A DNA stretch of 64,000 nucleotides. Source: Isoetes taiwanensis. Taxonomy: Eukaryota; Streptophyta; Lycopodiopsida; Isoetales; Isoetaceae. The DNA lies in assembly GCA_021234155.1 (NCBI GenBank), contig JAJEKV010000071.1, positions 1,497,138 to 1,561,137 on the forward strand, given 5' to 3'. A program made the translations under genes and the position numbers. The notes beneath the pieces were generated by a model, which saw only the letters and a program-made list of their open reading frames with translations, did not search any database and was not told the DNA's origin. Positions 4,396 to 35,717 of the stretch are shown here, one piece after another. Within the stretch, counting starts at the first letter, position 1. The number at the start of each line of letters is the position of its first letter.

Positions 4396-7300
4396 TAATT
4401 CTCAATCTCCAACCAAGTTCAAGTGGAACAATGCTAGTGTCTCTGCTCTATTGAGGTGACATACTTATCAATTCTTTTTATCTTACCACCATCTCCATCT
4501 TTTTATCTTACCACTCTTAGATGCGCAGATTATTGCACGAGAAGATCCTTCAAGAGAAGAACAATATGCCTACCGACAGATCTCAAGTTAAGAAAATGTT
4601 CAAGCGACCGGCTTTGGTTATAAAGTCATACATGCATGTCCAATGATTGTATGATCTTCTACTCCCCCTGTCGAGCATGAAAAGTCCACTCATTGTCCCG
4701 TATGTAATGCACCGAGATACAAGAATGACCTAAAGGGAAAAACAGTACCTCAGAAGGTTATTTGACACTTTCCAATAATCCCAAGATATATGCATCACTA
4801 CTTCTCACAAATAGTTGTAGATTCACTTATTTTCAGTACTTATATGTTGCCTATAATTTATTCTAATATATTATATAGGTTAAAGCTGATGTTTCGTTGC
4901 AAGACATTGGCTAACCTAATGGACTTCACGGATACACATGCATCTAGTGATGATGTGATGCGAGTCCCGGGCGACATTGCAGCTTGGAAGCATGTCGATG
5001 CGACATGGCCTGACTTTGCAAAAGTACCACGTAACGTGCGTTTGGGCCTGGTTACCGATGGCGTAAACACATATGGTACACAATCGACTGCATGGTCTAC
5101 ATGGCCAGTGATGCTAGTTAACTACAACATACCCCCATAGTTGTTATGAAGAGTGGGCACATTATTATAACTTTATTGATACCTGGGAAGAAAAAACCAA
5201 GTAATTTAGATGTGTACCTAAGAAGCTTCGAGGCACTTCCCTTGCATGATATGTGGGAAAAAGTTGCAGCACCGTCACTCTAAGCATCTGAAGAAAGTAG
5301 TACACGAGGGTTTTAGGAAGTATTTGCCGCTCACGCACCCCTTCAGAAACCAGCGTGCACAATTCGGTGGCACTGTAGACTATAGAGAATCACCAAGCAA
5401 AATTACCATACGAGAATGGGGTGAGCGTTGGAATAAGAAGGAAGAGGGGGGAAATCCGCAAGGGGGCACCTACAGCTGAGGAAGTCGTATCCGACCTAGA
5501 CAGTGAGGATGAGGAATTATACAGTGATGGCGAGGAAGCCGCGAAGGAGGAAGTCTTTACTGCCAATATGAAAAGGAAGTCTATTTTTTATAGAATACCA
5601 TATTGGACCGACTTTTCGATTCAACACCTTTTAGACCTAATGCATATCTTCAAGAACATGGGAAACTCTTTATGGAAGCATGTATTTGGTCAAAAAGACA
5701 CAACAAATGTCAGGATGGACCTTAACATAAGTAATACAAAGAAAGAGGCATGGATCTGGGGTGAAGGGCAACCAGTTCCTTCGGCAAAATGAGTTATTGG
5801 TAGGGCTGACCATCGAGCTATTTATGCTGATTTACGGGCCCTTAGAACACCAACTGGTCTTATGCAATCATTGCGAACCTCATTCACAAGTACTGAGGAT
5901 CTGACTGGTTTAAAGTCCCATGACTGGCATAAGTTCTTGCATGTAAGCAATTGATGTCCACATATGCACTACTATTAATTATAACCCATACTTATATTTG
6001 GTGTTTGGATCATGCAGTTCTTCATGCCCCTGACCTTTAGGGGAGTTTTAGACAAGGGACCCTTGGAGGCAATAAGTGCCCTATCAAAGGTCATAAGGTT
6101 GTTACCCATGTTGATTTAGTGGTCCCCCGTCTATTTTATTTGTGGCTAAGTTTTTTTTTTTTTGGGGACCTCATAGGTGGATGTGTAAAAAAACTATCCC
6201 GAAAGATGAAATTGAAGAGATGAAAGTGAAAATGGTAGAGGCATGTTGCTTGTTGGAGAAGGAGTTTCCTACGACTTTCTTGACAGTCAAATCCATCTTT
6301 TGGTACATCTTATTGAGGAAATGGAGCTCGCGGGAACTGTACATGCGAGATGGATGTTTTTCTTGGAAAGGTTTATGAAGGTATTGAAGGATATGGTGCA
6401 TCAAAGAGCACGTCCTGAAGATAGGATGGCAGAGGGGTGGCTTGCGAAAGAGTCACTTTTCTATATGACAGAATATATTTTCGCCGTACATCCAGATGCA
6501 CCTCGCTTATGGAGTGATGATGGGGAGGAGAAGATTGTGGGGGGTAGTGGCAGAAGGCAATGGTTTGCAGAAGTCATTTCCGCCTGATATTATCAATAAG
6601 GTTAATCAATTTCTTCTTTACAATTCGGCACCAATGGCAAAATGGATTAATGGAAGAGAAGAGGCATGAATGGAGACAACATAATACGCGAGCCCCATAC
6701 CCAGATGGATATGGATCCTTGCCGGACAATATGGAAAGAGAATGGGTACTACAGGCTATGACCGATGCATATTACAAGGGGGAGTCTATTACAGCTACGG
6801 AATGGGCATATGCACAAGGTGTCATGAGAAAGGTACTTGCAACAAATTATGTTGATATTGAAATCGAGTATTTTCTTTTAATGGTATTGTATTTATTGAC
6901 ATTAGTGGTGCGTTTGACAGTATACATTTTACTCCTCGATATGGTGGCATGGGACCCACTATCGTGTGAGTGCTCTTGACATACACAGTAAGACTTGTGA
7001 CTGTGGAGTCATGGCATCATTCACGATGGAGTTTCAAACAAGTGTTGCCAAACATAATCGTCAGGATGCCACCTGTGATTGGGCCGGGTTTGGTGGCAAT
7101 TTCAAGTCCTTCATATTCGATATCGATTGGTTCGACCTTCAATTAAGGGAGGCCAGGCCTACAGTAAAGTATGATAGAAGAAGTGGCTTTTTCGCTATCA
7201 ACTCTAGCAAACCATACCCTAGTAGTGAGACGCTTGTCCTTCCAGACAACTGTGAAAAGGAAGGAAGGAAGGAAGAAACTTTTAATGTCCACGGAACCCA

Positions 7301-7909
7301 ATCGGGTTATGGGACCACAAGTACAAAACGGGACCGGAGTCCCTAACCAGAACAAGGACCGAAGCCCACAGAACAAAACATAATCACCATGGCCCAGATT
7401 AAAAACCACCTGGGAAAAAACTGTTGCCAGGATGATACACATCCAAAAATCCATGCTATTGCAAGAAGCAATAAGCATACCTCCAACAGACAAGACTTCG
7501 CCAAGTGCCTCCGAACCAGGTACACTTATGCACACATATCCAAATTCAAAATTTAGACCATCAATATCAATCTCACGTCTAGCTTCTTTGACCAGATTTT
7601 TTTCTTTACCGATCGACAAGATCCAACATGGTGGTTTATCATACAAACTACACCAAGGGGATGCCCAATATTCTAAGGTGTTGTGCTAGAGGAGTCAATA
7701 ACATCTGAAGAGCCCTCTGGCAGATCATGGCATTTAAACTTACCCGAAAACGAGCATCAAGAGGATGGACCACCAGCTTTCATGCAACATCTTACACCAG
7801 AGCAATTCCACGAAATACAGATGTACTTCATGCATTTTGATACAAATGTTGGCAATGATAACAACGACGACTCCTAGTTAGCACCTAGAGGAGACGATCA
7901 TTGAATTCT
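4396..7909 (+). pseudogene. tnp2: CACTA (En/Spm) Tnp2 transposase, copy 1
   Basis: A degenerate Tnp2-type transposase, the enzyme that cuts and moves CACTA DNA transposons. Recognisable blocks in order: the region before PNDC (about 4540-4760); the core with NVRLGLVTDGVNTYG and WPVMLVNYNIPP (4880-5140); the ICGKKLQHRH and FRKYLPLTHPFRNQ block (5246-5400); HLLDLMHIFKNMGNSLW (5590-5700); SHDWHKF (5920); RARPEDRMAEGWLAKESL (6400-6460); and a C-terminal DUF4216-like domain with DCGVMASFTM (6966-7250). Several frameshifts separate the blocks, and at least two gaps look like introns (near 4830 and 5950-6020). The end was set where similarity to copy 2 stops (GAATTCTATAT). By eye the two copies are nearly identical over long stretches, so duplication was fairly recent. 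Confidence 0.85.
7259..7519 (-). mobile_element. about 260-bp insertion in transposase copy 1
   Basis: Copy 2 runs uninterrupted from TGTGAAAAG to GTACACTTATG, whereas copy 1 has about 260 extra bases between these points. The extra DNA starts with a (GAAG)n run on the plus strand. Read on the minus strand it therefore ends in a CTTC-type simple tail, as a short LINE- or SINE-like insertion in reverse orientation would. No target-site duplication is evident, so a deletion in copy 2 or a retained intron-like segment are alternatives. It lacks GT at the left edge, which argues against a simple intron. Confidence 0.4.
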
Positions 7910-8597
7910 ATATGCCTAATATTATGCACATCCCCCGGGAGGTGCACCTCTATATATGGACAGATGGCATGTGCGTTCGAGGGCTCGCAGAAAAACCCCT
8001 GTATATGGCTTTTTGGAGTAGAAAAACCCATACCATACGGGTTTTCGAACTAACATACCTTATAGCCCCTATCCATAGATTTACGATTGGTTGTGCCAAA
8101 TTATATAACCCCTTCCCAACTTTGTACCTTTTGTGAGGACATAGGTCTAGGGTTCCATTTAGAATAAAATACTGAAACAAAATGCAAAGAAATGTGCAAT
8201 ACCTGGAATAGCTGGAATGGACAGTGCTAAGATGAATCTGCTAGAAAGGTAAAAATGCAGCTGGAAATATAAGGATATGACGCTCCTTCCGTCAGATGGA
8301 TCAGCTCCCCAAATTGATCATCTACGAAATCTCTCCTTCCCACCTTAAACCCTTCACGTTGAAAGCTAGAAAATGAATGGCATAGACGTATGTGCTCCTG
8401 ACCGTATACCTACAACCAAGGCGATAAAAAAACCCCAACCGTGCACTCACTTGATCAGTACGTGTACTCTAGGTGCACCCCCCTTGGCACATGCTCAGTG
8501 CAATCCTTCTGATAGGCTATGTCTATTGGACTGATAAAAATCCATTCAATTCAATTCTTTTTTTCTTTTTCCTCCCTCCCCCTCCTCCCCCCCCTTT
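7910..8597. other. interval between repeats, little recognisable
   Basis: No supportable gene. Similarity to copy 2 stops at 7909. A weak inverted pairing surrounds AAAAACCC and GGGTTTT near 7990-8050. A polypyrimidine run of C and T sits at about 8560-8597. Only short chance ORFs are present. Confidence 0.4.
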
Positions 8598-9623: not shown

Positions 9624-11888
9624 TTAATCTCCAACCAAGTTCAAGTGGAGCAATGCTAGTGTCTCTGCTCTATTGAGGTGACATACTTATCAATTCTTTT
9701 TATCTTACCACCATCAATTCTTTTTATCTTACCACCATCAATTCTTTTTATCTTACCACCATCTCCATCTTTTTATCTTAGCACTCTTAGATGCGCAGAT
9801 TATTGCACGAGAAGATCCTTCCAGATAAAACAATATGCCTACCGACAGATCTCAAGTTAAGAAAATGATTCAAGCGACCAGCTTTGGTTATAAAGTCATA
9901 CATGCTTGTCCAAATGATTGTATGATCTTCTACCCCCCCTGCCGAGCATGAAAAGTCCACTCATTGTCTCATATGTAATGCACCAAGATACAGGAATGAC
10001 CTAAAGGGAAAAACAGTACCTCAAAAGGTTAGTCGACACTTTCCAATAATCCCAAGATATATGCATCACTACTTCTCACAAATAGTTGTAGATTCACTTA
10101 TTTTCAATACTTATATGTTGCCTATAATTTATTCTAATATATTATATAGGTTAAAGTTGATGTTTCGTTGCAAGACATTGGCTAGCCTAATGGACTTCAC
10201 GGCTACACATGCATCTAGTGATGATGTGATGCGAGTCCCGAGCGACAGTGCAGCTTGGAAGCATGTCGATGCGACATGGTTTAAATTTGGGAAAGAACCA
10301 CGTAACATGCGTTTGGGCCTGGTCACCGCTGGCATAAACACATATGGTACACAATCGACTGCATGGTCTACATGGCTAGTGATGCTAGTTACCCCCATGG
10401 TTGTTGATGAAGAGTGGGCACATTATTATAACTTTATTGATACCTGGGAAGAAAAAACCAAGTAATTTAGATGTGTACCTAAGAAGCTTCGGGGCACTTC
10501 CCTTGCATGATATGTGGGAAAAAGTTGCAGCACCGTCACTCTAAGCATCTGAAGAAAGTAGTACACGAGGGTTTTAGGAAGTATTTGCCGCTCACGCACC
10601 CCTTCAGAAACCAGCGTGCACAATTCGGTGGCACTGTAGACTATACAGAATCACCAAGCAGAATTACCATACGAGAATGGGATGAGCATTGGGATAAGAA
10701 AGAAGAGGGGGGAAATCCGCAAGGGGAAATCCACAAGGGGGCACCTGCAGTTGAGGAAGTCGTAGCTGACCTAGACAGTGAGGATGACGAATTATATAGT
10801 AATGGCGAGGAAGCCACAGAGGAGGAAGTCTTTACTGCCAATATGAAATGGAAGTCTGTTTTTAATAGACTACTACATTGGACCGACTTTTCGATTCAAC
10901 ACCTTTTAGACCTAATGCATATCTTCAAGAACATGGGAAACTCTTTATGGAAGCATGTATTTGGTCAAAAAGACACAACAAATGTCAGGATGGACCTTAA
11001 CATAAGTAATACAAAGAAAGAGGCATGGATCTGGGGTGAAGGCAAAATGGGTTATTGCTAGGGCTGACCATCGAGCTATTTATGCTGATTTACGGGCCCT
11101 TAGAATACCAACTGGTTATATGCAATCATTGCGAACCTCATTCACAAGTACTGGGGATCTGACTGGTTTAAAGTCCCATGACTGGCATAAGTTCTTGCAT
11201 GTAAGCAATTGATGTCCACATATGCACTACTATTAATTGTAACCCATACTTATATTTGGTGTTTGGATCATGCAGTTCTTCATGCCGTTGATCTTTAGGG
11301 GAGTTTTAGACAAGGGACCCTTAGAGGCAATAACTGCCCTATCAAAGGTCATAAGGTTGTTACCCATGTTGATTTAGTGATCCCCCGTCTATTTTATTTG
11401 TGGCTAAGTTTTTTTTTTTGGGACCTCATAGGTGGATGTGTAAAAAGACTCCCAAAAAACGAAATTGAAGAGATGAAAGTGAAAATGGTAGAGGCATGTT
11501 GTTTGTTGGAGAGGGAGTTTCCTACGACTTTCTTGACTGTCAAATCCATCTTTTGGTACATCTTATTGAGGAAATGGAGCTCGCGGGAACTGTACATGCG
11601 AGATGGATGTTTTTCTTGGAAAGGTTTATGAAGGTATTGAAGGATATGGTGCATCAAAGAGCACGTCCTGAAGATAGTATGGCAGAGGGTGGCTTGCAAA
11701 AGAGTCACTTTTCTATATGATAGAATATATTTTCGCCGTACATCCAGATGCACCTCGCTTATGGAGTGATAATGGGGACGAGAAGATTGTGGAGGTAGTG
11801 GCAAAAGGCATGAATGGAGACAACATAATACTCGAGCCCCGTACCCAGATGGATATGGACCCTTGCCGGACAAGATGGAAAGAGAATG
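9624..11888 (+). pseudogene. tnp2: CACTA Tnp2 transposase, copy 2, 5' part
   Basis: Same transposase family and block order as copy 1: PNDC region (about 9880-9930), VRMPS-to-NMRLGLVTAG core (10,150-10,400), KKLQHRHSKHL and FRKYLPLTHPFRNQ (10,507-10,640), HLLDLMHIFKNMGNSLW (10,890-10,950), and RARPEDSMAEG (11,660-11,700). A 24-bp unit (ATCAATTCTTTTTATCTTAC plus CACC) is repeated three times at about 9689-9760, where copy 1 has one unit. Relative to copy 1 it lacks about 17 bp near 11,040 and about 100 bp near 11,806. The larger gap is flanked in copy 1 by GGCA, suggesting a microhomology deletion. Coding is broken by frameshifts. It is interrupted at 11,888 by a nested insertion and resumes at 18,691. 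Confidence 0.85.
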
Positions 11889-12472
11889 CCACGGTTCTAT
11901 TGCGACAGCAATAGAACCGACATTCCTTGGATGGGGACGTCCCTTTGTCACTCATTCTATTTATTCAGCCTCTCTTCATTGTTCTACCATCGGCGTTCTC
12001 TTGAGCTAGATTTCTCCTTCTTCTCTATCCTATCAGTTTCAGCGATTCTAGTCTCTACTCTTAGGATGCTATCCCACTGGTTCTTCTGGTTCAGCTTCAT
12101 CCTCTGTCCTATCAGCTTCTAAGTTTACTTCCTATCTTTATCGAATTCGTTGCTAGTTCCACATGACGAGGGTTTCTGGTGCTTCTTTCACGGTGATTCC
12201 GGCAACACGCGCTTTTGAGGTTCGGTTGCAAAGCGGCTTTGGTGCATCTTTCTTGGCGCTTTGAGGATTCTTCCCATCTGGGCTTTTTCGTTAGAGGGGT
12301 ATATGAGGTATGCTTGAGGCGGCAAGTTTACACTAGGTAAGACTTAGGTAAGACTTGGTTTTGCTTGTTCCTTTTTTCATCGGATGGTTTCTGTATCGGA
12401 TGGTTTCATCGGATGCTTGAAGCGGCAGGATGGCACCAGGTGCTTGTCTTTAAATTCGTGCTTGTTTGGAAG

Positions 12473-12683
12473 TAGAACGGATGCCAAAATCCCTGTCGAA
12501 ATTTGTCCTCCCGTTTTGCTGCACCAACTCGAACAAGGCCCATCTCTTCATGTCAAAACCACCAAAGAAGAGCTTCTCAAGAGGTACCGATCTATGTCTT
12601 TGATTCGGCGCCTAGAACTGACAGCAGACATGCTTTTCAAATCGCAAAAGATAAGAGGATTTTGCCATCTATATGATGGCCAA
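12473..12683 (+). pseudogene. captured exon of pyruvate dehydrogenase E1-alpha
   Basis: Within an ORF starting at 12,384, the translation contains SLHVKTTKEELLKRYRSM, then IRRLELTADMLF, then KIRGFCHLYDGQ. This is the characteristic N-terminal segment of the mitochondrial pyruvate dehydrogenase E1-alpha subunit, which decarboxylates pyruvate with thiamine diphosphate. Family similarity stops exactly at LYDGQ, where the expected EAV-GMEAA block does not follow, so only one exon-sized piece is present. The upstream residues to 12,384 are not clearly homologous. A possible splice donor (GGTAAGTCC) lies downstream near 12,732. As part of element 1 it looks captured and is not a functional gene. 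Whether it is transcribed as a chimera cannot be judged. Confidence 0.75.
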
Positions 12684-13024
12684 TTGTGGGTTCCCATCCC
12701 ATGCTCCCTCCTGCTGCTGCGAAACTCCGATGGTAAGTCCCAGAGATAATTATCCTGTTTGAGTATATTGCTTTGTTCGAAATACATTCCAGCTTTAGAC
12801 GACCTGTATCTCTGGAAAATCGTGTCATAGCTTTTCTTCAGAAGAACTCGATTCTTTTGTTGAATTTCTTTCTTCAATTTGTTGCAGTTATGATTTTTCA
12901 TCTTGATTTTTTTGGCTATAAGGTTGCGTGAACAAGGCTTGAGCTCAGGCCCATGTGCATCTGAGACCTTCTCATATCGATTGAGGTTTCAATATATCTA
13001 ATCCCATAATATAGTGTATTGGCA

Positions 13025-13065
13025 GTGTTGTTCATAGTGATAGAGAGACCTGGGTTCAAATTGCG
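13025..13065 (+). repeat. tRNA B-box-like sequence
   Basis: The string CTGGGTTCAAATTGCGG contains a close match to the RNA polymerase III B-box (GGTTCAAATTGC against GGTTCRANTCC). No clear A-box or cloverleaf could be assembled upstream, so this is at best a fragment of a tRNA-derived SINE inside element 1. Confidence 0.25.
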
Positions 13066-14739
13066 GTTGGCGACTTGGGCTTTAATTGCCATTGGAGCAT
13101 GATGGATGTAGCTTTTCTGCCAGGACCAAAGGATCCTCCAAGTTTTCGCAGGAGCTTCTCACATTTTTCTCACATTCCTTTGTTGCAGTAGTCTCAGAAC
13201 CGTGATTCCGTTCCTCCCTGAAGACTTGGCCATATCCAGCCCAAGGTTCTGATCAATCGGTATTCTAATTTTCAAGTTCTTGATCAATTGAGGTGTGATC
13301 CTAGCTCTCAGTTTGGATTTCTGCACCCGTTAAGGCACTTGGGAGTTGCTTAGTTTTCACCACTCTCACAAGGCTATACTCTCACAAGACTTTTTTTCTG
13401 GTTTTTGTTTGCATGCTTCCCTTTATGTATGTACTTGGATAACCCCTGTTTTTGTTCTTTGAAGTCCGCCCTTTTTAATCTTTTCTTCAATTTTTTGTTA
13501 ATATGTGCCAAAACTATGTGATCCTTCTTTTTAGTTTGCATCCTTCTTTTTAGTTTTGCCTCTTCTTCGCTCTTTTCTTTCCGGTTTATTCTTGCGGCAT
13601 TCCTTGGGTTTCAAGCTTTCCCATTAGGGAGCAAATTTTATGATCCGGTCTTCAGCTAGTTTGTCTTTCCCCATGTACATTGTCTACAGAGCATACGTGG
13701 ATTTTGAAGTGCATATTAAGTATGATTTGTCAACTCCGGCATAACCTCTCTCTGATTACCCCAAAGCATAATAAGTCCGCCATCGGGATGTCTTTGCCTT
13801 GTATTTCATTTGAGGAAGTGTCGTGTTCCTAATTTGATTATGTAAGTAGATTGCATGCAATATTATCTCATTTTCTGGATCTGATGCTTATTAGTACACG
13901 GAGTTTTCTGTCATCGAAAGAGCGTTATTGGCGATATTTTGTGCTTTGGGACAGACGCTCAGTGCAAGCGCATGCAAAAGTCGGCTCTGAGTTCCAGCAT
14001 CTACAACAGCACCAGGACTAACTGGACGATTTCTTTCTCTCCCTATATCGCGTTTTGTAAAAAGCTGAATGTTTAAGACTTATTTCATATTAGTGGGGTT
14101 GGCTTGTTGCAGGGATTTGGCTTCACAGATACAGGTTCGTGTCCTTCCATGTTCTTCTTTTGCCGTTGTAATGCCGGGGGTATGGAAGCCATGTTTTCCA
14201 CTTTGTTTCTAACATCGTCTGGTCGGGCTCTTCATATATTTGTTGGTTGGATTCAACACTGAACACTTTTTTATTTATTGTGGTAGCAATTCATTATGGT
14301 AGCAGTTAGCTAACACTTTACATGCGTTTGATGTCAGCCGTTGACTTGTTATTTTTACCTTTTTTTGCTTACTAGTTCATTCTTGGACTTGTGTGATTAT
14401 GATGCATTCATATGGAAGTCATGTTTTTCACAATGTTGCTAACATCTTCTAGTTGGGCTCTTTAGGTCATTTTGTTGGTTGGATTCTGCATTTGACGCTT
14501 ATTTCTTATTTGTGGATGTGGTTATCTAGCAAGGTATGGATTTGATACGTGTCGTTTTGCTTTGGGCCATTTGCTGGTATTAAGCATGGTAAGTAGCATG
14601 GTCCCATCAAATTTCATAAGTATTTTGCAATGGTATTTAGGATTGGTTTGGCCCGTCATCTTTGAGGGCATTATCCCTTGTATGCAGATCTTTTTCATTG
14701 TCTCGATAACCATTTAGTTTGTATCGTCACCATGGTTTA

Positions 14740-17650
14740 GAAATGTGATCCCGTGGGTCTTATTTTCGCATTTTCTTGACGTGTTCTTTTTTCACCTTGC
14801 TCACTTACACTTCTGCTTTCTCCTGGCTCACCTGAGTGTCTATCGTCTCACAGTCTCACGTATTCTTTTTATCATCGTACCCCTTTTTACTTCGTTTGCT
14901 CCTTTAAAAGTTTTTCTCTCTCTCCTCCTTTTTTGCATCTATCTTGTTTGCATCGTTTGCTTTTATCTCTACCATAGGTGTCTCGTGGCATCCAACCTTT
15001 TTTACATCAGTGGCCCTTTAGCCAAATTGTATATGTGTTATGTTCTTTTGTTGGGTATGATGGATACTTTACCTGCTCCTTTAGCTTACATTTTCGTATT
15101 TGTTCCATTTGTCTTGTTTTCCCTTGGTTGTTCTATCTACCTCCACTTGTTGGATTTGTTCCATTAGTTCCCTTATCTTATTCGTCTGTCTGGTGCATTG
15201 GCATGTTTTTGTATCTTCAGTTCAGTTATCGCGTTTGTTCTTTTTGCCCTTTTGGCCTACAGATTTTGTGTTTCTTCCATTTGTCTTGTTTCTTCCATTT
15301 TTTCCATGTGCCCCTATTTGTTTCATTTGTACCTTTCGCTCCCATGTCCTAGTTGTCTACTTGCTCCATTGGCCTATTATTTTTGTATGTGTTCATTTTG
15401 TTTTGATTACTCCATTGTTTTGCACTTCGTTGTTCCTTTCCTATGCTTTGCTCCCGTTGTCTTGTTTAGGATATTCTTGTCCCCAATGTCAGCTTGGTTC
15501 TTTTTGTTGAGGGAGGTCTTGTCTCATTGGCAACTGTGTTTCACATCGTTCCCCATATCTACATATGATTGATTGAGTTTGTTTCTCTTGATGGGCGTTT
15601 GTACGTTCATTATGGTATGTTGTTACATTTGTTCATGGTACGCATATTGCTTTATCGATATGTTGTTCAACACCCACGTGCACTTTGCTGATCTAGTCCA
15701 TTTTTTCTCTATCCCATTTCTTCTGATGTTCCAGTGGGGCATACCCTTGTTTTCTTTATTTTATGTTGACCGGTTGTCACTTTGTCCATTTTCTAATTCA
15801 ACCTATGCCATGTTCATTTTTCCATTTCATCCCATTGGCTTTTGTGCACCTTCCTCCTCCTATTATTTGGTGGGTGATATTGGCATTACATATTTTCTCT
15901 TCGTCAATTCTTTTGTAGTTTCGTTCATTTAGGTCCTTTTGGCCTTCAACATTCAACACAGTTAGTTTAATGCATATTTTGGTCATATGCATCAGGTAGA
16001 TAATCCTTGTACTACATGGCTTTTTGTTGTACTTTAGGCTTTGTACATGGGCGTATTTGGTTTTAGCTAATGCATTCTGCTTCTCTAATCCTTTTTAGCA
16101 TTATAACTCATTTGTTTCATTTGATCTTTGATCCATGCATAGGATATCATGTATATTGTTCGTGGTTTTGATTCCAATCATCATACCTTTGTATGGACAT
16201 CTGATGTTACCTCTAGCATTTCGCCAGTAGCTTTCTCGTCTCGGTGCCAGTTGTGCAACTATTCCAATTGGCCATATGGGTTCTAGTTTTGTCCTTTTGC
16301 TTGGAAAGTTCTTGTTCATGACATTGTTTCATTAACCCATTGTCCCTATGGCATTTTTTCCTTATACTTTCATAAGTTCTTTTGATCCTTTTGCATGCCA
16401 CATTTAGTCCTTTGCTTCAGTTTAACTTTTGTTTCGCATAGATATTGATCCCTTTGTGCCATTTACTCGTGGTTGATACCTCTAGCTCCTTTTTATGTCG
16501 TTGTTTCGCATAACTTTCCTATGCTTCTAACTGCGAGTTGTGCACATTTGCCAAGTGCGCAAACATTTTTTATGCTTAGTCCGGTTTATCACAGTTGTCC
16601 TTTTTGCTCTAGGTTCTGTTTCTTTTCTTGATATCATCATTCCAGTTATTCTGTATTCCCTGGACATGTTTTTGCTATTCTAATCCATCCATTTGCCATT
16701 GCTTCATTATCTAAATGTGCTTTTTTCCCTCCTTTGCTCATCTTTTTGCCATATTTTCCTTTTTTCCAAGTACTTGGTGCCTTTATCTCCATTTGTTCCA
16801 GTCTATCAGCCGATTTGTTTGTTTCTAGGTTTTTATATTGGGTCACTTGGGTCACTTGGATGTTTGTTTCGATGTCTTTCGCATTGATCCTTTGTTGTCT
16901 CTATTTGTGAATTCACTCCACTTATTCCATGTATCCCATCAGCTTCATTTGTGCATTCTATTTTGTTGCAGTGACCTTTGTAGACTCGTTCCCCCCTTTC
17001 TTTGTTCCTTTAGATTCTACATGCTTCATTATGGGTTTGGTGCGCTCCATTTGCTATACACTCCTCATTATCTTGTGTTTGCATTGTTTCCTTAATTCCT
17101 TTTCTTTAGCTTATTGTTCCGTTTAACTCTAGTGACATTATTACTATATTAGTCACATTGGTTCCTTCTTTGATTTCTTTGTCGTCTTGCTCCTTTTCTA
17201 TTGCTGGTTAGGATAGTTTGCTTTTATAGTTTCTTTGTTAGTGTAGTGTTTATTGGACATTAGTCATTTGAGATCGTTACTTTGACGATGACATCATGTT
17301 CGTGGCTCTATCTGCTGTTGTCCCATAAGTTCCTTCCCTCATCTCTTGCGGCACTATTCCATTGTCTTCTTCATTCTTTTTTTCCATCCCTCATAGCATT
17401 TCCTCCATCGTCTTCTCCTTCATTTTTATTCATTCCATTGTTTTCATTCCGACATTACTTGCTCTTATCTGCTTTTTCATTGTTCCTTTTGTCTATGTCT
17501 TCTCTTTATCCCCTTTTTTCCTCCATTTTTCTTCGTTTTACTCTGATTGCCGTCAGCCTTATCTATGCATTCTTTTTCAGTGACCTTGTAGACTCATTTC
17601 TCCCTTTCTTTATACTATATTTCTCTTTAGCTTCTCTTCCTTTCAGTTTC
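14740..17650. repeat. long T/C-rich, A-poor tract with degenerate short repeats
   Basis: Nearly 3 kb in which the plus strand is dominated by T with C and G and strikingly few A. Short phrases such as CATTTGTC, TTGTTCC, CCATTTT and CCCATTG recur irregularly. The plus-strand ORFs here encode only Phe/Leu/Cys/Ser-rich strings, as expected from the composition, so I call no gene. The tract lies wholly inside element 1 and ends shortly before its right terminus. It resembles a heavily decayed tandem array of a short pyrimidine-rich unit. Confidence 0.6.
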
Positions 17651-17726
17651 CATGCCGAGTAGTTTTTTAGTTTGTTCCTCTTCTATCGGCCAGTATATGC
17701 CTATCATAGGACCCATCCTAGGAATG

Positions 17727-18690
17727 CCACGGTTCTATTGCGACAGCAATAGAACTGACATTCCTTGGATGGGGACGTCCCTTTGTCACTCATTCTATTT
17801 ATTCAGCCTCTCTTCATTGTTCTATCATCGGCGTTCTCTTGAGCTAGATTTCTCCTTCTTCTCTATCCTATCAGTTTCCCTCGCCCTCCCTCCCTTGATG
17901 GTTTTTTCATTTGATCGTGTTCGTTATTTCCTTTTCTATGTCCTTTAAGTTTGCATTCTTTATTTCCTCAACGTGGCTTTGTAGCCTCTGAGGCATACTT
18001 ATTGGTTTACTCTTTCTTGGTATGGCACTAGTATTTTATTTATTCATTCATGTTTTCTCTCGGTGTGGCATTGTAGCCTCTGAGTCAATATTTATTATTC
18101 ATGTTTTCTCTCGGCGTGGCGCTGTTGCCTTCGAGATCATATTTATTATTTTTTCTCGGCGTGGCGCTGTAGCCTCCGAGGCAGCACTAATCGGTTGTTT
18201 TTTCCTGCGATGGTCATTCCGCGGACGGTTCCCGATTGGTCGGCTGTTGTTTCTTTCTCGGCGTGGCCCTGGAGCCTCCGAGTCTTCTTGTCTATGGCAT
18301 CTAACTCATTGACGGGTTATTTTTCTTTCAGCCTTGATTCTGCAGGATTTTTTAAGGTCTTGTGGTTGCCATAGTGCGTGGGGTCGTGCTTCAACCATTT
18401 GCTTGGGTTTCCTCAAAAACCTAAGAAGGCGTGGAAAGTCTTCCCGATGAGGAGCAGTCACCGAGTCTTCTCACCTTTGCATCGACCAAGTGGCGGATAA
18501 AACCATCTTTTATGTTGTATTCTTCAGTTTCATCATGCTCTCGATGATTGTCTAGTTTCAGAGCATTTAAAGTTCATATTTTCAAATTTATCTATCCCTA
18601 GTGAGGGATCCATTTGTACTCAATGTTTTACAGAGCTCAATGAGAACACCACTTGCGGCCAGTATATGCCTATCATAGGACCCATCCTAG
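17727..18690. mobile_element. unclassified element 2, shorter relative of element 1
   Basis: Starts with the same CCACGG and hairpin (second arm GCAATAGAACT, one base changed), and is identical to element 1 over its first 152 bp except for about two substitutions. It ends with the same 35 bp (from CGGCC through CCATCCTAG, 18,656-18,690). The roughly 780 bp between are unrelated to element 1. It abuts element 1 with only GAATG between, and GAATG follows it at 18,691-18,695, where the CACTA transposase resumes. Shared ends with different interiors are typical of element families that swap or capture internal DNA, Helitrons for example. Confidence 0.7.
17967..18285 (+). repeat. five degenerate CTCGG...CCGAG hairpin repeats
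   Basis: A unit close to TTCTCGGCGTGGCGCTGTAG followed by CCTCCGAG occurs about five times (near 17,968, 18,055, 18,108, 18,154 and 18,256), spaced by AT-rich TATTTATT-like linkers. Each unit is bounded by the inverted pair CTCGG / CCGAG with an inner GGC / GCC pair, so each copy can form a small hairpin. Mutations in later copies keep the bounding arms. The array is inside element 2. Confidence 0.65.
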
Positions 18691-19603
18691 GAATGGTTAC
18701 TACAGGCTATGACCGATGCATATTACAAGGGGGAGTCTATTACAGCTACGGAATGGGCATATGCACGAGGTGTCATGAGAAAGGTACTTGCAGCAAATTA
18801 TGTTGATATTGAAATCAAGTATTTTCTTTTATTGTTATTGTATTTATTGACATTAGTGGTGCTTTTGACAGTATACATTTTACTCCTCGATATAATGGCA
18901 TGGGACCCACTATCGTGTGAGTGCTCTTGACATACACAGGAAGACTTGTGACTGCGGAGTCATGGCATCATTCACGATGGAGTTTCAAACAAGTGTTGCC
19001 AAACATAATCGTCAGGATGCCACCTGTGATTGGGTTGGGTTTGGTGGCAATTTCAAGTCCTTCATATTCGATATCGATTGGTTTGACCTTCAATTAAGGG
19101 AGGCCAGGCTTACAGTAAAGTATTATAGAAGAAGTAGCTTTTTCGCTGTCAACTCTAGCAAACCATACCCTAGTAGTGAGACGCTTGTCCTTCCAGACAA
19201 CTGTGAAAAGGTACACTTATGCACACATATCCAACTTCAAAATTTAGACCATCAATATCAATCTCACGTCCAGCTTCTTTGACCAAATTTTCTTTACCGA
19301 TCGACAAGATCCAACATGCTGGTTTATCATACAAACTACACCGAGGGGACGCCCAATATTCCAAGGTGTTGTGCTAGAGGAGTCAATAACATCTGAAGAG
19401 CCCTCTGGAAGATCAGGGCATTTAAACTTACCCGAAAATGAGCATCAAGAGGATGGACCACTAGCTTTCATGCAACATCTTACACCAGAGCAATTCCACA
19501 AAATACAGATGTACTTCATGCATTTTGATACAAATGTTGGCAATGATAACAATGACGACTCCTAGTTAGCAACTAGAGGAGACTATCATTGAATTCTATA
19601 TAC
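18691..19603 (+). pseudogene. tnp2: CACTA Tnp2 transposase, copy 2, 3' part
   Basis: Continuation of copy 2 after the nested insertions. It encodes MTDAYYKGESITATEWAYA (18,709-18,765) and then the C-terminal DUF4216-like domain with CDCGVMASFTM, NFKSFIFDIDWFDLQLREAR and SSETLVLPDNCEK (18,917-19,210). It proceeds directly into VHLCTHIQLQNLDHQYQ without the 260-bp segment present in copy 1. Frameshifts between blocks and a gap at about 18,780-18,910 (probably an intron) are shared with copy 1. Homology to copy 1 ends at GAATTCTATAT. Confidence 0.85.
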
Positions 19604-27527: not shown

Positions 27528-28280
27528 ATGGCTAGCCAAACAGGAGCGGGGGAGGCCAGCAGGGAGGAACTCAAACAAGACCTGCAAGACTTCTTGGCAC
27601 AGATGGAAGTAAGACTGGAGACCAGGGTACCGAGGATGGAAGCGCTCAACACACTGGCGAGCGCGGTGCAACAGAACAAAGAAGCGATAGGGAAAGTGGA
27701 AGATCGGGTGCAGGTGGTGGAAGATACAGGGGTGGAAATTCGGAAAAGGATGGAGGAGGTGGAGAAAGAAAAGGCGGAAATCATACAAAGGTTGGTAACA
27801 TTAAAAAAGAAACAAATAGATCTAGATGCGTGGCAGAGTTTTGATAGGATTAAACCACACATAGTGGAGTTCAAGGAACAGGAAAGGATAAAACATGATG
27901 CAAGGTTGATAGGGGTAGTCGAAAGGCCTAACGAAGACACGTTTCGTGTCACTGCAGAAATAATGGAGAGCGTTTTTCAGGAACACAGGAATGTGATAGT
28001 GAAAGCAGTCCGTGCAGGAGCTTGGAGAGGAAGGGCGAGACATATAAATGTGACTATGAGAGACCTGGCAGCCAAGGAAAGAATCATTCACGCAGGGTTC
28101 AAACTCAGGAATGGACTCAAAGTACAAGAGGCCTTAACAGCCATGCAGAGGCAGGGGTTACACAGGGAACTGGCGAAAGTCAGAGAATTGAGTCGGGCGG
28201 AAGTACAAGCAGGGGTAAAGAATGGGAAACTCTACCTCAAAAGAGGTCGAGAGAATACACCGCAGGAACCGGCAACGTAG
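27528..28280 (+). CDS. LINE ORF1 nucleic-acid-binding protein
   Basis: A continuous 250-codon ORF. The first half is a predicted coiled coil (many Glu/Lys/Arg with heptad-like Leu/Val/Ile). The second half matches the ORF1p RNA-binding type: DARLIGVVERPNEDT, then FQEHRNVIVKAVRAG, RARHINVTMRDLAAKERII, FKLRNGLKVQE and a Leu/Arg-rich end. ORF1p normally trimers through the coiled coil and binds LINE RNA as a chaperone. Start chosen at 27,528 because it precedes the coiled coil and follows the non-coding leader. It overlaps the upstream-open ORF2 frame. No stop or frameshift is seen inside. Confidence 0.7.
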   Translation: MASQTGAGEASREELKQDLQDFLAQMEVRLETRVPRMEALNTLASAVQQNKEAIGKVEDRVQVVEDTGVEIRKRMEEVEKEKAEIIQRLVTLKKKQIDLDAWQSFDRIKPHIVEFKEQERIKHDARLIGVVERPNEDTFRVTAEIMESVFQEHRNVIVKAVRAGAWRGRARHINVTMRDLAAKERIIHAGFKLRNGLKVQEALTAMQRQGLHRELAKVRELSRAEVQAGVKNGKLYLKRGRENTPQEPAT

Positions 28281-28289
28281 AGAGATGGG

Positions 28290-31198
28290 ATGGTCCCACA
28301 GGATCCGAGGGAAGATGGGAACCGCGAAACGGAGGCAACGAAAGGACAGGGACAGCAGAAACAGTTAAGGGAAATAACACCATCCGGGTCAATAGACCGG
28401 GAAACAGCCCCAAAGATTCTAACACAGACACAGCTAGGGTGGGGAAGCGGAAAAGAGGTCGGAAGGGACGTAGACCAGAACATAACGCTGACAAAGGAGA
28501 CAGGGGGGGATCAGGGAGCAAAAACGAGGGGACAGTTAAAGAAAGGACACGCACTAGATCCCCAGGGGGGCAGGGGGGTACAGAAAGGAAGGAAGAGGTA
28601 ACGATCTGGTACTGGAATTGCACGGGATATCCTTGGGATGATGGAGAACGCCTACACGCAGCACGAGACCAGGATATCATATGCCTGGTAGAGACGTGGG
28701 AGCACAACACAAAGAGGCTACCAGATGAACCAGGATACACATTGTTCACATGCTGGAGGGAAAAGAACTACAAAATAGGAAGAGGAAGCGCAGGGCTAGC
28801 TTGCTACATTAGGAATAGCAGTGTCAAAAAAGCATGTATTTTGGAAAATGACATTAATAAAAGATACATGCTTATAAATATTATGTTGCTTGATTACAGA
28901 AATCTATATTTGCTAATAGTATATTATCCACCTCAATGTGATAAACTGGAACTATTAAGCATGGGAGAAATTGTCATGAAACATAGGGATAAGGGACTGT
29001 TGATCATAGTAGGGGATATTAACGCAAGGACGGGACAAGAACAGGCACAGAAAGCAGGGATAGATACGGAGAGTGGACAGTGGACACAGGCCGGAAGAGG
29101 GGAAGAATGGCAACGGAAACACGATGAGACTAAATGGAGGTGACAAATGAGAGGAGAAACACCGATAGAGGTATGTACAAACCTACAGATACAATTATAT
29201 GCAATGGCCTAAGAAGGTGGGTGGCTTCGTGCCAGTTCTAAGCACAAACGCCACGGAGCAAAAGATAGTAGACTATGTGATAGCAAATGAGGAAGCAATA
29301 AAGGAAATCTGGAAAGATGTAGTTAGGAGAATGGCGTTAGGGAGGGAGGGAGGGACCTGAGACCCATCCCCGCCAAGATGAATGTGGCGAGGGAAGAACA
29401 GATGATGTGCAAGGAAGAGGCAAACATGCCAAAATAATAATCAAATTCAGAGAAAACAGAGTGGGAACATTCATAAAAACGGTGAAAAAGAAAATAAAAG
29501 AAAAGGAATGGGGAGAGGGTATGAAGGACAGAGGGAACGACATGAATGACATCTTGGAAGAAGCAGCAAAAATGGCATTCGGGAGAAGAGAAAAAGGAAG
29601 AAGGGCTATAGCATTTCGAAGGTCAGTATGGTTTGACGCAGTATGCATGGAACAACGAAGGAAAGTCAAACAGGCAAAAGGAACTGAGACATACCGTGAG
29701 GAACGCAAAGAAATATGTGAAGATATCAAAAGAAAGAAAGCTCAGGACCTGAAAAACCACCAATGGGGATTGGCCGAAGACCTGAAAAAGCGACCTAAGG
29801 TATTCTGGAACAATATGAAAAAAGGCTCAAAAACAAAAGCGGGTACAGTAGTAGGAGAGGAGGGGGGAGGAATGGAAATAGAAATAGACTGGACAAGATA
29901 CCTAGAGCGTCATGGGGGCTGCACCAATCATGGCCCCAGAAGGTAGACACAAACCTCCCTTCTCCAAGGAAGAAGTGACATGGGCACTAAACAAAATGGC
30001 AAACAATAAGGCACCGGACCTATATGGGCTAACAACGAAGATGTTGAAATGCGTAGGTACAGAGATAATAGGGACCATAACAGAAATATTCAATGAGATA
30101 GTACATTCAGGTCTACCGGAAAGATGGCAGTTTAATAAAGTAATCCCACTCCATAAAGGAGGAAACAAAGAAGAATCGAGTAATTACAGGACCATTATGG
30201 TCAGCTCAGTATTCGCGAAATGGTTCGGGAAAACTTTGGATCAAAAACTGAAAACGTGGGCAGAAGCAGGGAAACTCAGAGCACAAGGTCAGGCTGGTTT
30301 TCGACCAGAGTACTCGACTACGGACCATCTGGTAACCCTAAGGATAATGATAGAGCAGACAAAGGAGAGTAACAGGAAGATCATATGCTGCTTCGTGGAC
30401 TTTAAAAAAGCCTTCGACACAGTACCCAGAGATAAACTCCTACTTAGACTAATAGGACTAAGAGCACCAGAAGGGTTAGTAGGATCAATTGCAAGGCTAT
30501 ACCAAAAGATATATGCCAAGACAGATGGGATAGGGGAAGCCATAGACTGCGACACAGGAGTAAAGCAAGGATGCCCACTATCACCCACACTTTTTGGGAT
30601 ATACATAGATGCTTTGCAGGAATTTGTCAAGGAGAGAGGGGGAGACAGTGAAGCACCAATGATAGGGAGGACAAAAGTCCCAATAATGCTATATGCGGAT
30701 GATCTAGGTATGATGGCGACCAAAGCCAAAGGAATGCACAGAATGCTAGAGATACTAGAAGAGTTTTGCGTGGAGACGGGACTGACAGTCAACCTGGACA
30801 AAACAAAAATAGTGACCTTCGGTACAAAGATAAAACACAGACCCTTTAAATACAGGGGGAAAGTACTAGAGGAAGCCACAGGGTACAGATATCTAGGATA
30901 TGACACACATGGGGGGGGGGAGGGGAAGTGGTCAAAAGGGGCAGATACCAGATTCCAAGCAGCGATAGGCAATTATTACATCATGATGAATTATTGTAAC
31001 AACAATAGGATCACCAACTGGGAAATCAAAACATACCTATTTAGCACATTAGTAGCATCAACACAGCTATACGGATGTGAGACATGGGGCCCAGGCCTAT
31101 CAGAGAAGAAATGGGAAAAACAGGAAGGCATATTGAGGCAATGGGAGCTCGCAGGACGCTACACAAGTCCGGGGGCCTCACGGCCTGAGGGACGCTAA
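28290..31198 (+). pseudogene. LINE ORF2: endonuclease and reverse transcriptase, frameshifted
   Basis: ORF2 begins in a Gly/Arg/Thr-rich linker (open frame 28,022-29,143). It encodes an APE-type endonuclease: WYWNCTGYPW, DIICLVETWEHN (catalytic Glu), LLIVYYPPQCDK, IVGDINARTG (Asp/Asn), and after a frameshift KIVDYVIANEE (about 29,265). A linker ORF (29,407-29,946) leads to the reverse transcriptase (29,912-31,198): ANNKAPDLYGLT, NYRTIMVSSVFAK, CFVDFKKAFDTVPRDKLL, KQGCPLSPTLFGIYID, MLYADDLGMMA (catalytic YADD intact), and TVNLDKTKIVTFG. The C-terminus ends at RPEGR without an RNase H domain or zinc knuckle. At least two frameshifts or stops (near 29,143 and 29,340) disable it, although the reverse transcriptase itself is open. 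Confidence 0.8.
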
Positions 31199-32214: not shown

Positions 32215-34228
32215 GTCTGTCTGACAACCAACAGAATTAAATACATATGGCGCCATGAATGTGCGATCCCCCTTATTCCGGGAGAATATTCCAAGTAAAT
32301 CTGTAATTATGAGAGTTTGGTATCCTAGGTGGCATGGGGAAAAAGGAGCGGAAATATGACGTGGAATGGCTGATAGGACGATGTTTTGAGACCCCAAATC
32401 TGCCCTAATGGACAAGGCTTTTGTAAAGATATCAGCTGCTTGACTATTTGTTTTGATATACTGAACAAAGATATACTGTTTTGCCACCATTTCTCTGATA
32501 AAGTGCACATGTAATTCTATATGCTTATTCTTTGGTGTAGAACTGGATTCTTTGTAATTTCTATGCAACTAAGACTGTCACACAATAATATTGTTGGATC
32601 AACCTGTTTTATTCCAAGTTCATCTAACAATCTCCTGGACCAAATTATTTCTTTTGCAGCCAAGGTTGTGGCAGCATATTCTGCTTCTGCTGAGGACATT
32701 GCAATGCTTGATTGTTTCTTAGACTTCCAAGATACTGCTGCACCTCCTAATATAATTGAGAAACCTTAAGTGGATTTCCTATGGTCTAGGTCTGATGCCC
32801 AATCCGCATCACAATATGTTTTGAGTATGAGATTATCATTTGTATAAGTTAAACCTTCCTGTGCCGTCCCTTTAAGGAATCTCAGCGAGCCAATGTTCCT
32901 TTCCAGGATTATTTGAATATCTGCTCAGTAAGCTAACCAAGAAGGCAATATCAGGTCTGATACAATTACAGACATACAACAAACAGCCAATCAATGCACG
33001 ATAGGGTACCCTTTCCATCTCATTTCTTTCACTTTTATTGCTTGGACACATGGCTCCTGAAATTTTGTGCCCAGGGACTAGAGGAGTATCTGCAACTTTA
33101 CACTCGTCCATGCCAAATCTTCTGAGCATATTCTGAATATTTGAAGTTTGAGTTAGTGATAAAGTTTTGTTTGTCCTGTTTCTAGTGACCTCAATTCCAA
33201 GAAACTTCTTTAGTTGCCCCAGGTCCGTCATTTTGAATTTAGATCTTAGAATATTCTTGCAGATATTTAGAATTCCGAGGTCATTTGCCATTATGCAATC
33301 GTCCACATATAGGCCTATTATGCAAAAAATTCTCCTTGTTTGAGCACATATAAATTGCCTTCGCTTTGCAACTTACAAAACCCATTTCTTTCAAATGATG
33401 ATCCATGCAAGTGTTCCATTGACGTGGTGCTTGTTTCAAGCCATAAACTGCTCCTTTGAGTTTCCATACTAAATTATTTTCTTCTTCAAATCCTAGAGCC
33501 TGTTTCATATATACTTCTTCCTCTAATTTAGCATTCAAGAATGCTGTAGTCACATCCAAATGATGTAACTCAAGATCTTTAGCATTTGCATATGCCAAAA
33601 GTATGCGAATGCTTGACAGTTTTACAATTGGTGAGAAAATCTCATCAAAATCTAAACCCTTTTTCTGAGAAAACCCCTTTGCTACTAATCTAGCTTTAAA
33701 TTTCTAAGTTTTACCATCAGGGCTTGTTTTAAGTTTGTAGATCCATTTGTTATCAATGACATTTTTGCCTTGAGGTTTTTCCACCAAATCATACGTGTCA
33801 TTCATTTTAAATGACATCATCTCATCTTGCATGGCATGCTTCCACTCATTTGAGTGTTCACTAGTTATGGCTTCCTCGTAAGATTCTGGAATTTCTGCTT
33901 CAAGCATAGCCATAATATTAAAGATGTCCACATCTTCATTAATTCTTTTACTTATGCCTGTTTCTTTTCTCCAATAATTATTTGTGTCAAAATTCAGCTC
34001 TTCTTGTAACTTTTGAGCCTTTGATCTTTTCTTTGGAATCTTTTGTACAATAGGTTCTTCTTCATCATTATTCACTGCTGGTGCAGTAATAGCATCAGAG
34101 TAATTGCTTTTTTCCGAGTTAATTTCATGTTCATCACTGTCTTTTTCATGTTCATCCGAACTGTCATCATCCAGGTCTACCATAATAGGTTTATTTGCTG
34201 ATTTTTTTGTTTTTTCAGCAGACTGCAC
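32215..34228 (-). pseudogene. Copia reverse transcriptase and RNase H
   Basis: Minus-strand order: EWKHAMQDEMMSFKMNDT and NKWIYKLK (reverse transcriptase start, 33,704-34,228), LDVTTAFLNAKLEEEVYMKQ and VYGLKQAPRQW (33,281-33,598), GLYVDDCIMAND (catalytic YVDD box, about 33,300), LIGCLLYVCNCIRPDIAF (about 32,935), then RNase H with YCDADWASD, SSAEAEYAA and FTKALSIRADLG (32,220-32,860). Frame changes near 33,320 (just before YVDD), 33,700 and 32,520 break the polyprotein. An acidic linker with Asp/Ser runs precedes the reverse transcriptase. A purine-rich AAGGGGGA (minus strand, near 32,268) could be the polypurine tract, but no 3' LTR was found beyond it. Confidence 0.85.
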
Positions 34229-35717
34229 TATTGTACTCTTGTCTCTATCTTTGTAACTGATGTCTTCCGAAAAATCACATCTCTACTAACTATAATCCTC
34301 TTTTGTAAGGGTTCATAGAGCAGATATCCCTTTGACTGATCATCATACCCAATGAGATAACACGTGTATGACCTATCATCAAGCTTTTTCCTGTTTTCTT
34401 CTAGGATGTGAACATATACAAGACAACCATATACTTTAAACATATCATAAGAAGGTTTAACTCCATACCATATTTCATCTGGAATTTTTCCATCTAAGCT
34501 TCTTATGGGCAGTCTATTTTGAATTTGTACTGCTGTTTGAACAACCTCCTCCCACAGATAGTTTGGTAAATTTGCATGTTTCAGCATAGCCATGACAGCA
34601 TCTAGAATTGAGCGATTCTTATGCTCTGCAACTCCATTTTGTTGTGGAGTGTGTAAGCACGTGAGTTGCCTTCTAATTCCAAGTTGAAAGCAATATCTGT
34701 TGAACCTGTCAGACACAAGTTCACCTTCCATGTCAGTTCGTAAGCATTTAAGTTTTTTACCTGTTTGTCTTTCTGCTTCAACTTGGTATAACTTGAACGC
34801 TTCAAAAGCTTTGTCCTTTGTTCTGAGAGCGTAGCATTTTGTTTTTCTTGTGAAATCATCTGTAAAAGTGATAAAGTATCTCTTTCCATGAATGCTAGTA
34901 ATGTTAAGAGGACCACACAAGTCGCTATGCACTAGTTCCAATATTTCTTTTGCCCTTTTGGCATTTTTTGGAAACAGTAATCTACTTTTCTTCCCTTTCA
35001 TGCATCCAATGCAATTCAAATGTACTGCTTTGCTTTCAGCAGTTAGAATCAGCCCCTTTTTAATCATGAAATTCAAATTGTTGATGTGCGTGTGTCCAAG
35101 TCTTTCATGCCACATGGCAAAGTTACTGCATTAATCATTGCGGAAATATCATTATGAAAACCAAATAGCTTCCCAATACGCTTTGCAAAAAACTTAACTT
35201 CATTATTCATGAGAACCTTACAATAATGTTTTTCAAAAACTACCTTGTACCCAAGGTCTACCAACTATGTTACTGAAATCAGATTTTTAACAATGCTAGG
35301 AACACATAATACATTTTCCAGAGTTACTGGATTTCCTCCAAGATCTAATAATTCCAGCCATCCAGTCTTGTCCACTTCCTTCAATTTGCCATCTCCTAAT
35401 TGCACAAAGCTTGAACTCTTGATGGTCTTCCCTTTGAATCTAGAACAGTCCTTAAGTACGCTTCTCTCAGCTCCACTATCTAATATGAACATCTCATCAG
35501 TAAGTTTAGATTTGCTTTCTGAAATAGACAGGGTATTGTGCATACTTACCTCTGCTTCTTCATTTTGTTCTCCTTCTTCATTTGTCTCGCATGTAGTGTT
35601 TATGGCAGTGGCTTTCCCTCTACCTCTGCCACCTCTTTTACCCCTTCCTCGACCAGCAATGCCTCTGCCAGAAAAATCCTTCCCTTCAGTTAATGGCAGT
35701 GTGCCCAAAGCCTTCAC
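34228..35717 (-). pseudogene. Copia protease and integrase
   Basis: Protease remnant: MFILDSGAERSVLKD (DSGA active-site motif, about 35,490) followed by ENVLCVPSIVKNLISV (about 35,280). Integrase: WHERLGHTHINNL with downstream CIGCMKGK (zinc-binding HHCC region), HSDLCGPL (first Asp), CLRTDMEGE (second Asp; the usual Asn after it is Met), TPQQNGVAEHKNRSI (catalytic Glu), and GCLVYVHI, YLIGYDDQSKGY near the end. The Asp-Asp-Glu triad is present. The protease and integrase ORFs (35,265-35,717 and 34,228-35,115) are in different frames, with a gap at about 35,115-35,265. Confidence 0.85.

Follow-up and report, generated by a model that had tools for sequence, protein, structure and literature searches.

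Transposons of the Helitron2 group, or Helentrons, are marked by asymmetric terminal inverted repeats (ATIRs), one at the 5′ terminus and the other upstream of a hairpin that precedes the 3′ end, and by insertion that duplicates none of the target other than T- or AT-rich bases held in common. In the sections of the sources drawn on here, Bao and Jurka (2013) describe Helitron2 elements with a 5′ T, a 3′ ATIR at a distance of 20–30 from the end, and no target duplication in the Helitron-1N1_CRe example (PMC3627910). Thomas et al. (2014) describe the nonautonomous HINE/DINE-1 Helentrons, with subterminal inverted repeats ≈2–4 nt from the 5′ end and 38–60 bp from the 3′ end, a palindrome near the 3′ end, T-rich insertion sites, and an unchanged target, and they report Helitron clusters that form head-to-tail composites with variable interiors (PMC4067079). 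The FoHeli elements of Fusarium combine ATIRs, hairpins, an ambiguous 5′ T, and tandem copies with insertion after TNAT in FoHeli1/2 (PMC5148889). Here, we describe an inserted element in a 64,000-nucleotide stretch of the Isoetes taiwanensis genome (contig JAJEKV010000071.1, positions 1,497,138 to 1,561,137 of the forward strand; hereafter the window). This element, abundant in the genome of a green plant, is probably a nonautonomous rolling-circle transposon of Helitron2/Helentron type, made up of two family members (e2 upstream and e1 downstream on the element's own strand) that have become a single mobile composite.

Results

Two units with shared ends interrupt a host repeat

The inserted DNA consists of two blocks, 11884–17721 and 17722–18695, whose left ends agree at 155 of 157 bp and whose right ends agree at all 40 bp, including a GAATG that stands at 11884–11888, 17722–17726, and 18691–18695. 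An earlier inspection of the same DNA without database searches (the sequence-only reading) had reported shared ends around unrelated interiors, GAATG at the left edge, middle, and right edge, and a terminal hairpin, and on all three points our analysis agrees. Each terminal motif is present twice in the window (0.00 expected), with no further site at ≤3 mismatches. The flanking host repeat aligns to a first, uninterrupted copy at 5609–7916 as three pieces of 94.6, 96.2, and 95.2% identity, and the uninterrupted site holds one GAATG, with its AAT at 6741–6743 as counted from the alignment. Joined to each other, the flanks match this paralog with a single AAT, placing the whole composite at 11885–18691 on the minus strand, a net insert of 6807 bp when one of the two flanking AATs is counted. 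The interruption of a repeat had therefore been recognized correctly; its assignment to CACTA is not established by the three short pieces, which give no Pfam match. A block of ≈100 bases at ≈6552–6658 of the first repeat copy is absent from the interrupted second copy.

Read on the minus strand, the composite has its 5′ end on the right side of the window copy and its 3′ end on the left, the opposite of the strand assumed earlier, and the end that carries the hairpin is the 3′ end. Component e2 (17723–18691, minus strand; ≈970 bp) forms the 5′ half and occurs alone as well. Component e1 (11885–17722, minus strand) forms the 3′ half, contains no long open frame, and is T-rich on the plus strand. 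The AAT of the inner junction lies within the middle GAATG, at 17723–17725.

Asymmetric repeats and a 3′ hairpin define the ends

The minus-strand ends read 5′-ATTCCTAGGATGGG... and ...CCCATCCAAGGAAT-GT-(12-bp-stem hairpin)-TGGCATT-3′, the right end of the window copy giving the 5′ end ATTCCTAGGATGGGTCCTATGATAGG. The 14 bases at the 5′ terminus (ATTCCTAGGATGGG; 18681–18694, minus strand) pair at 13 of 14 positions with a stretch 37 nt from the 3′ terminus (11922–11935, minus strand), a match reached by none of 5000 shuffled pairs, so that the two ATIRs stand at offsets of 0 and 37 nt from their termini. This pairing contradicts the earlier statement that terminal inverted repeats were lacking. 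Downstream of the 3′ ATIR, toward the 3′ terminus, comes a hairpin with a 12-bp stem and a 4-base loop (11892–11919, minus strand), the lower stem of which takes in the terminal GCATT; its folding energy gives z = −5.37, and none of 200 shuffles was as good. With a terminal 5′ ATIR and a 3′ ATIR set back behind a hairpin, the ends closely follow the Helitron2/Helentron plan. The earlier remark that the element recalls Helitrons was right in spirit; its companion claim, that no standard class accommodates the element, does not hold, since this noncanonical group does so by its ends.

Two other classes were considered and set aside. A canonical Helitron (Helitron1) could supply a 5′ TC (AT|TCC), but the 3′ ...GGCATT shows no CTRR in any register. 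The target ATT fits several insertion registers, including A^TT and AT^T (canonical Helitrons insert between A and T). An LTR retrotransposon does not fit either, as each unit carries the 156-bp repeat at one end and the 35-bp repeat at the other, and these are not the terminal repeats of one unit; the absence of LTRs and of TG..CA termini had been noted before and stands.

The outer 5′ terminus (18668–18694, minus strand) has exact copies elsewhere in the genome, and the inner 5′ terminus, belonging to e1 (17699–17725, minus strand), is almost invariant among copies. The 3′-terminal module of ≈156 bp (11885–12040, minus strand) is common to family members, whose interiors diverge directly beyond it. 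The inner edge of this module (12029–12039, CCTATCAGTTT) has seven bases in common with part of the 5′ terminus (18669–18679, CCTATCATAGG), a resemblance that may be due to chance.

Insertion adds a single AAT

We searched the 1.66-Gb genome (1110 contigs) with both ends and recovered a large family. The same genome gave matches to chlorophyll a/b-binding proteins, in keeping with a green plant, and four to terpene synthases. The 35-base right end occurs at 376 places with ≤3 mismatches across the whole genome, whereas a control gave 0, and for the left end, 40 matches scored out of 1496 first-look candidates show 98–100% identity. Exact searches found 75 outer right ends with a non-G base after AAT and 137 left ends with a non-G base before AAT, the first 100 of which were listed. 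For families this large, the counts are lower bounds.

The flanks of 80 loci were read first, and 29 copies with both flanks were tabulated. At outer right ends, found by a pattern stopping at CCTAG (L039–L080), GAAT follows in 31 of 33 and GAATG in 13 of 33; the two exceptions to GAAT are L043 (GAAG) and L048 (CTAT). Outer left ends carry TAATG, CAATG, GAATG, or AAATG, where the AAT is not independent evidence since the queries contained AAT(G). Overall, the only constant bases outside the element are AAT. When 16 joined-flank queries were searched, 4 gave full-length ungapped matches among the 40 + 41 matches listed, and the other 12 gave none there. The resulting eight empty-site sequences (L133; L134, L135, and L140; L136 and L137; L138 and L139) each hold one AAT with no more than 3 flank mismatches, and the first host-repeat copy in the window is a ninth, making nine sequences that represent five insertions.

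Insertion therefore adds a single AAT and nothing further, and the target is ATT on the element's own strand; GAATG is this AAT together with a G from the element or the target. The proposal that GAATG is a 5-bp target duplication is ruled out by the difference between GAAT and GAATG at outer right ends together with the empty sites. The companion proposal, that the element recognizes a target sequence, largely holds, with AAT/ATT in place of GAATG. No duplication is seen beyond shared T- or AT-rich bases, an outcome that a fixed 3-bp duplication would mimic exactly.

A probable e1–e2 composite recurs across the genome

Right ends fall into two types, e1 and e2. We read 115 right ends (a few loci were fetched twice), which a script divided into 54 inner and 61 outer; one of the latter, L132 (followed by GAACCCGC), is really a decayed inner junction. 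The 75 exact outer right ends comprise 64 of e2 type, 10 others, some with shortened e2 bodies, and a single one of e1 type (L064). Of 37 longer pairs listed, 15 were compared by BLAST, and in all 15 of these an e1-type right end leads into a second left end; the inner junction shows small damage in four (C941, C1029, C1039, and C1084). The next unit could be called as e2 within the BLAST comparison in nine of the 15; C1027, C908, C985, C907, and C390 were judged from L052, L060, L177, L117, and L082, respectively, and the outer side of C974 was left out.

The recurrence of the same inner junction at many loci makes an assembly artifact at 17,721 unlikely. The two "adjacent insertions" of the sequence-only reading, taken there as independent events, are best read, from these alignments, as one composite unit. 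Because an e1-type right end is followed by another left end in every longer copy compared and is so rarely outermost, the data suggest that e1 seldom moves alone and that the e1–e2 composite is the main mobile form. Several composites (L043, L045, L051, L054, and L058) have an altered, deleted, or rearranged e2 3′ hairpin at their inner junction, and in L040, the loop of this hairpin is inverted.

Interiors, captured DNA, and the search for RepHel

When the 35 rows classed as not tandem were compared with e1, the break came at 155–159 in 29 of them and, in the remaining six, at 71 (two), 146, 162, 200, and 219; the class labeled "ext" in this comparison includes a few decayed tandem junctions (L010 and one of L190). 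The last two breakpoints belong to C184 and C974; both copies have most of the e1 interior in common with the window copy. The bodies of longer copies otherwise hold differing DNA, including gag, reverse transcriptase, and hAT-like pieces. The window e1 contains a captured fragment of a host pyruvate dehydrogenase E1-alpha gene at 12480–12683 on the plus strand (E = 4.7e-14 to PDB 3exe; PF00676 E = 0.0022, below the cut-off). The same frame is seen in C184, and the C974 match to e1 does not reach the fragment.

The longest stop-to-stop frame wholly within either window block is 149 aa. A Pfam scan of 24 frames from family copies, the window copy included, identified gag, reverse transcriptase, and an endonuclease (just below the cut-off), as well as a hAT dimerization piece, a coiled coil, and an E1_dh piece, all below the cut-off. 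The long copies were considered as autonomous elements and rejected on the frames scanned with Pfam and the others inspected only, RepHel not being seen in C184, C985, C1026, C907, C1029, C1040, or C941, nor in C274, C1028, C974, C908, C390, C1035, C1084, C978, C1039, or C1027. The possibility raised earlier of a long copy encoding Rep/helicase, integrase, or transposase is accordingly not borne out for RepHel in the copies read. C960:16235–19743 (L181 and L182) does contain, on the minus strand, a Helitron whose frames include Rep (PF14214) and PIF1; the surrounding 20 kb (C960 8101–28000) contains no family end. No RepHel was found between these ends, and it is by the ends and the target that the family is placed in Helitron2.

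One locus, L141 (C274), would be a copy of ≈34 kb if both ends belong together; an e1 segment is repeated there ≈4.3 kb apart, and a frame resembles a hAT dimerization domain (PF05699 E = 0.00047, below the cut-off). Elsewhere in the window, LINE-type frames occupy 27932–31195 on the plus strand (endonuclease-like PF03372 E = 6e-5, just below the cut-off; reverse transcriptase PF00078 E = 1.3e-29), and a retrotransposon integrase piece lies at 34228–35127 on the minus strand, with rve, gag_pre-integrs (just below the cut-off), and retroviral SH3-like domains.

A variable join near the outer 5′ end

The constant e2 body (...GAGAACACC) meets the constant 5′ terminus at a join that varies from copy to copy (18651–18667 in the window, minus strand). 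In the 64 e2-type outer ends, we find 47 different strings, the commonest 12 times; an alternative key for removing duplicates gives 63 joins, still with 47 strings. The outer terminus is retained at different lengths, 29–42 bp counted to CCTAG, and in L164, L173, L041, and L051, the join is accompanied by a large body truncation that removes most of the body in the first three. The two sides overlap by 1–2 bases in 22 of 63 joins, show no overlap in 17, and are separated by filler or mismatch in 24, a pattern that end joining could give.

The same terminus is far more uniform at the inner position. Among 16 loci found by the left side only, a comparison that missed the decayed inner end of L010, 13 are identical, two are the same but read one base off, and one has a single substitution. 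In a larger inner set, 51 of 54 retain 53 or more of the 54 bases and show no more than one mismatch, and three are shorter.

Old duplicates of single insertions bear on when the join forms. Three locus pairs share a right flank at 89–93% identity and represent such duplicates. A rare join core is kept in C922/C996 (flank 89%, element 92% identical) and in C974/C1087 (flank 92%), though in C988/C491 the join differs by 8 bp. Two further pairs sharing 11 flank bases, C1035 4162412/4200854 and C1028 112533/144010, have joins that are similar and not identical. From these pairs, we read the join as fixed at insertion and subject to slow mutation afterward. The 7–11% divergence of the flanks in C922/C996, C974/C1087, and C988/C491 would fit either old duplications or subgenomes.

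Discussion

Several of our results weigh against one part or another of the interpretation favored here, and we consider them together with the alternatives that they touch. The inner junction contains exactly one GAATG, as would be left if a second element had inserted independently into the AAT ending a first, related one; e2 is found alone in three short copies (C945, C1025, and C1031) of 40 paired copies; and the divergences of e1 and e2 are uncorrelated (Mantel r = −0.03 with n = 26, a value reached in 950 of 2000 permutations; in a second distance test, r = 0.30 with n = 7, reached in 1123 of 5040), so that co-inheritance is not shown by distances in these two tests, both of low power. 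Such repeated independent insertion is nonetheless unlikely given the unbroken recurrence of the e1 right end beside a second left end, its near absence from outer positions, and the near uniformity of inner e1 termini. A cut-and-paste DNA transposon that always duplicates an AAT target and has degenerate inverted repeats would explain one AAT in empty sites, two in filled sites, and a short inverted repeat, and its empty sites would look identical to those observed. We regard it as more improbable still: the inverted repeats stand at unequal offsets of 0 and 37 nt, the outermost bases are not mirrored, the 12-bp-stem hairpin is present at one end only, and rolling-circle elements typically form head-to-tail composites whose interiors vary. 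A Helitron2/Helentron-type composite remains the probable explanation, even with a predicted 5-bp stem (TAGGA/TCCTA) at the 5′ ATIR that folds no better than shuffles (z = −0.66) and with no RepHel gene in any family copy read (26 ORFs Pfam-scanned, two from C960; the remaining frames inspected only). In a PF14214 profile search, one of the best 150 of 1813 candidates, the ones that were scored, lies within 40 kb of the 202 listed family ends, and one or two would be expected by chance (an estimate); this candidate is the C960 locus.

The join calls for separate judgment, as the element may be just what we propose while the variability reflects ordinary mutation, or slippage in the CACTT repeat that forms the body side of the join, and not a scar of transposition. 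This account is a serious contender, falling somewhat short of an even chance. Merging equal-length strings one substitution apart reduces the 47 strings to 31 groups (27 groups in 60, the largest with 21 members, when four second copies of insertions are also removed), showing that single substitutions explain part of the diversity. The nearby body is itself not free of indels, a 46-bp control window being exact in 29 of 55 copies, altered by substitutions only in 8, and by indels in 18. In the 15 closest e2-body pairs (≤4% apart), the join is equal in one and a 21-bp body control, an imperfect one, in six; the pairs are nonindependent, and some loci were picked by a pattern starting in the join, which favors equal joins. 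Duplicates of one insertion can also differ by a few bases at the join. Ordinary mutation accounts less readily for the termini kept at varied lengths, for joins coupled to large body truncations, for the near invariance of the same sequence at the inner position, and for the rare cores kept in two duplicate pairs. From this balance, and with controls that are only moderately strong, we infer that the 5′ join is remade at transposition.

A working model of movement can be outlined. A RepHel protein from an autonomous relative would nick at the ATT carried on the 5′ end, replication would run through e2 past its own 3′ hairpin, and it would stop at the 3′ hairpin of e1, the product then being joined to a target ATT. 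During this cycle, the strand may often be broken and rejoined ≈30–45 nt from the 5′ end, leaving a small insertion-specific scar. The fuller proposal, that transposition commonly rebuilds the 5′ end by cutting off the terminal ≈30–45 nt and rejoining them to a slightly or strongly trimmed body, leaving a readable scar, and that the composite can move owing to a bypass of the inner 3′ hairpin, is offered tentatively, and we think it more doubtful than ordinary change at the join.

Compared with published Helitron2 elements, as outlined in PMC3627910, the end plan of the present family is close, and the differences are the 3′ ATIR at 37 nt, a 5′ hairpin without energetic support, a RepHel partner that was not found, a target of ATT instead of TTTT, the composite as main form, and the variable 5′ join. 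With HINE/DINE-1, as described in PMC4067079, the family has in common subterminal repeats, a 3′ palindrome, insertion in T-rich sequence, and an unchanged target; the elements described there, however, have animal hosts and target TT runs, whereas the present family is in a plant and uses ATT. The FoHeli elements are alike in ATIRs, hairpins, tandem copies, and ambiguous 5′ T, and FoHeli1/2 in insertion preference, but the source describes putative autonomous, ORF-bearing FoHeli members and an arrangement of inverted repeats and hairpins that differs in detail (PMC5148889). The canonical Xuan-Feng Helitrons of wheat, whose copies are grouped by shared 30-bp ends, likewise have an AT-containing target, a 3′ hairpin, and nonautonomous copies, as presented in PMC13286980; unlike them, the present family lacks a CTRR 3′ end and has ATIRs. 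Among the titles and abstract openings searched, with subscription papers and Repbase outside reach, no paper dealt with a variable 5′ join or with this family. Overall, this is a new composite nonautonomous family that probably works like Helitron2/Helentron elements, with possibly informative variability at its active 5′ end.

Noncanonical Helitrons of this kind are missed by annotation that seeks TC...CTRR. With the exact end motifs, orientation, and target rule of this family, copies can be located by the hundred, and their structure points to a composite as the predominant mobile form. Should the join arise during transposition, a step of the Helitron cycle could be assayed from genome sequence by itself. 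Each outer 5′ join would then preserve, as a molecular fossil, a step not previously described, in which the strand breaks and its ends are joined just inward of the end bound by Rep.

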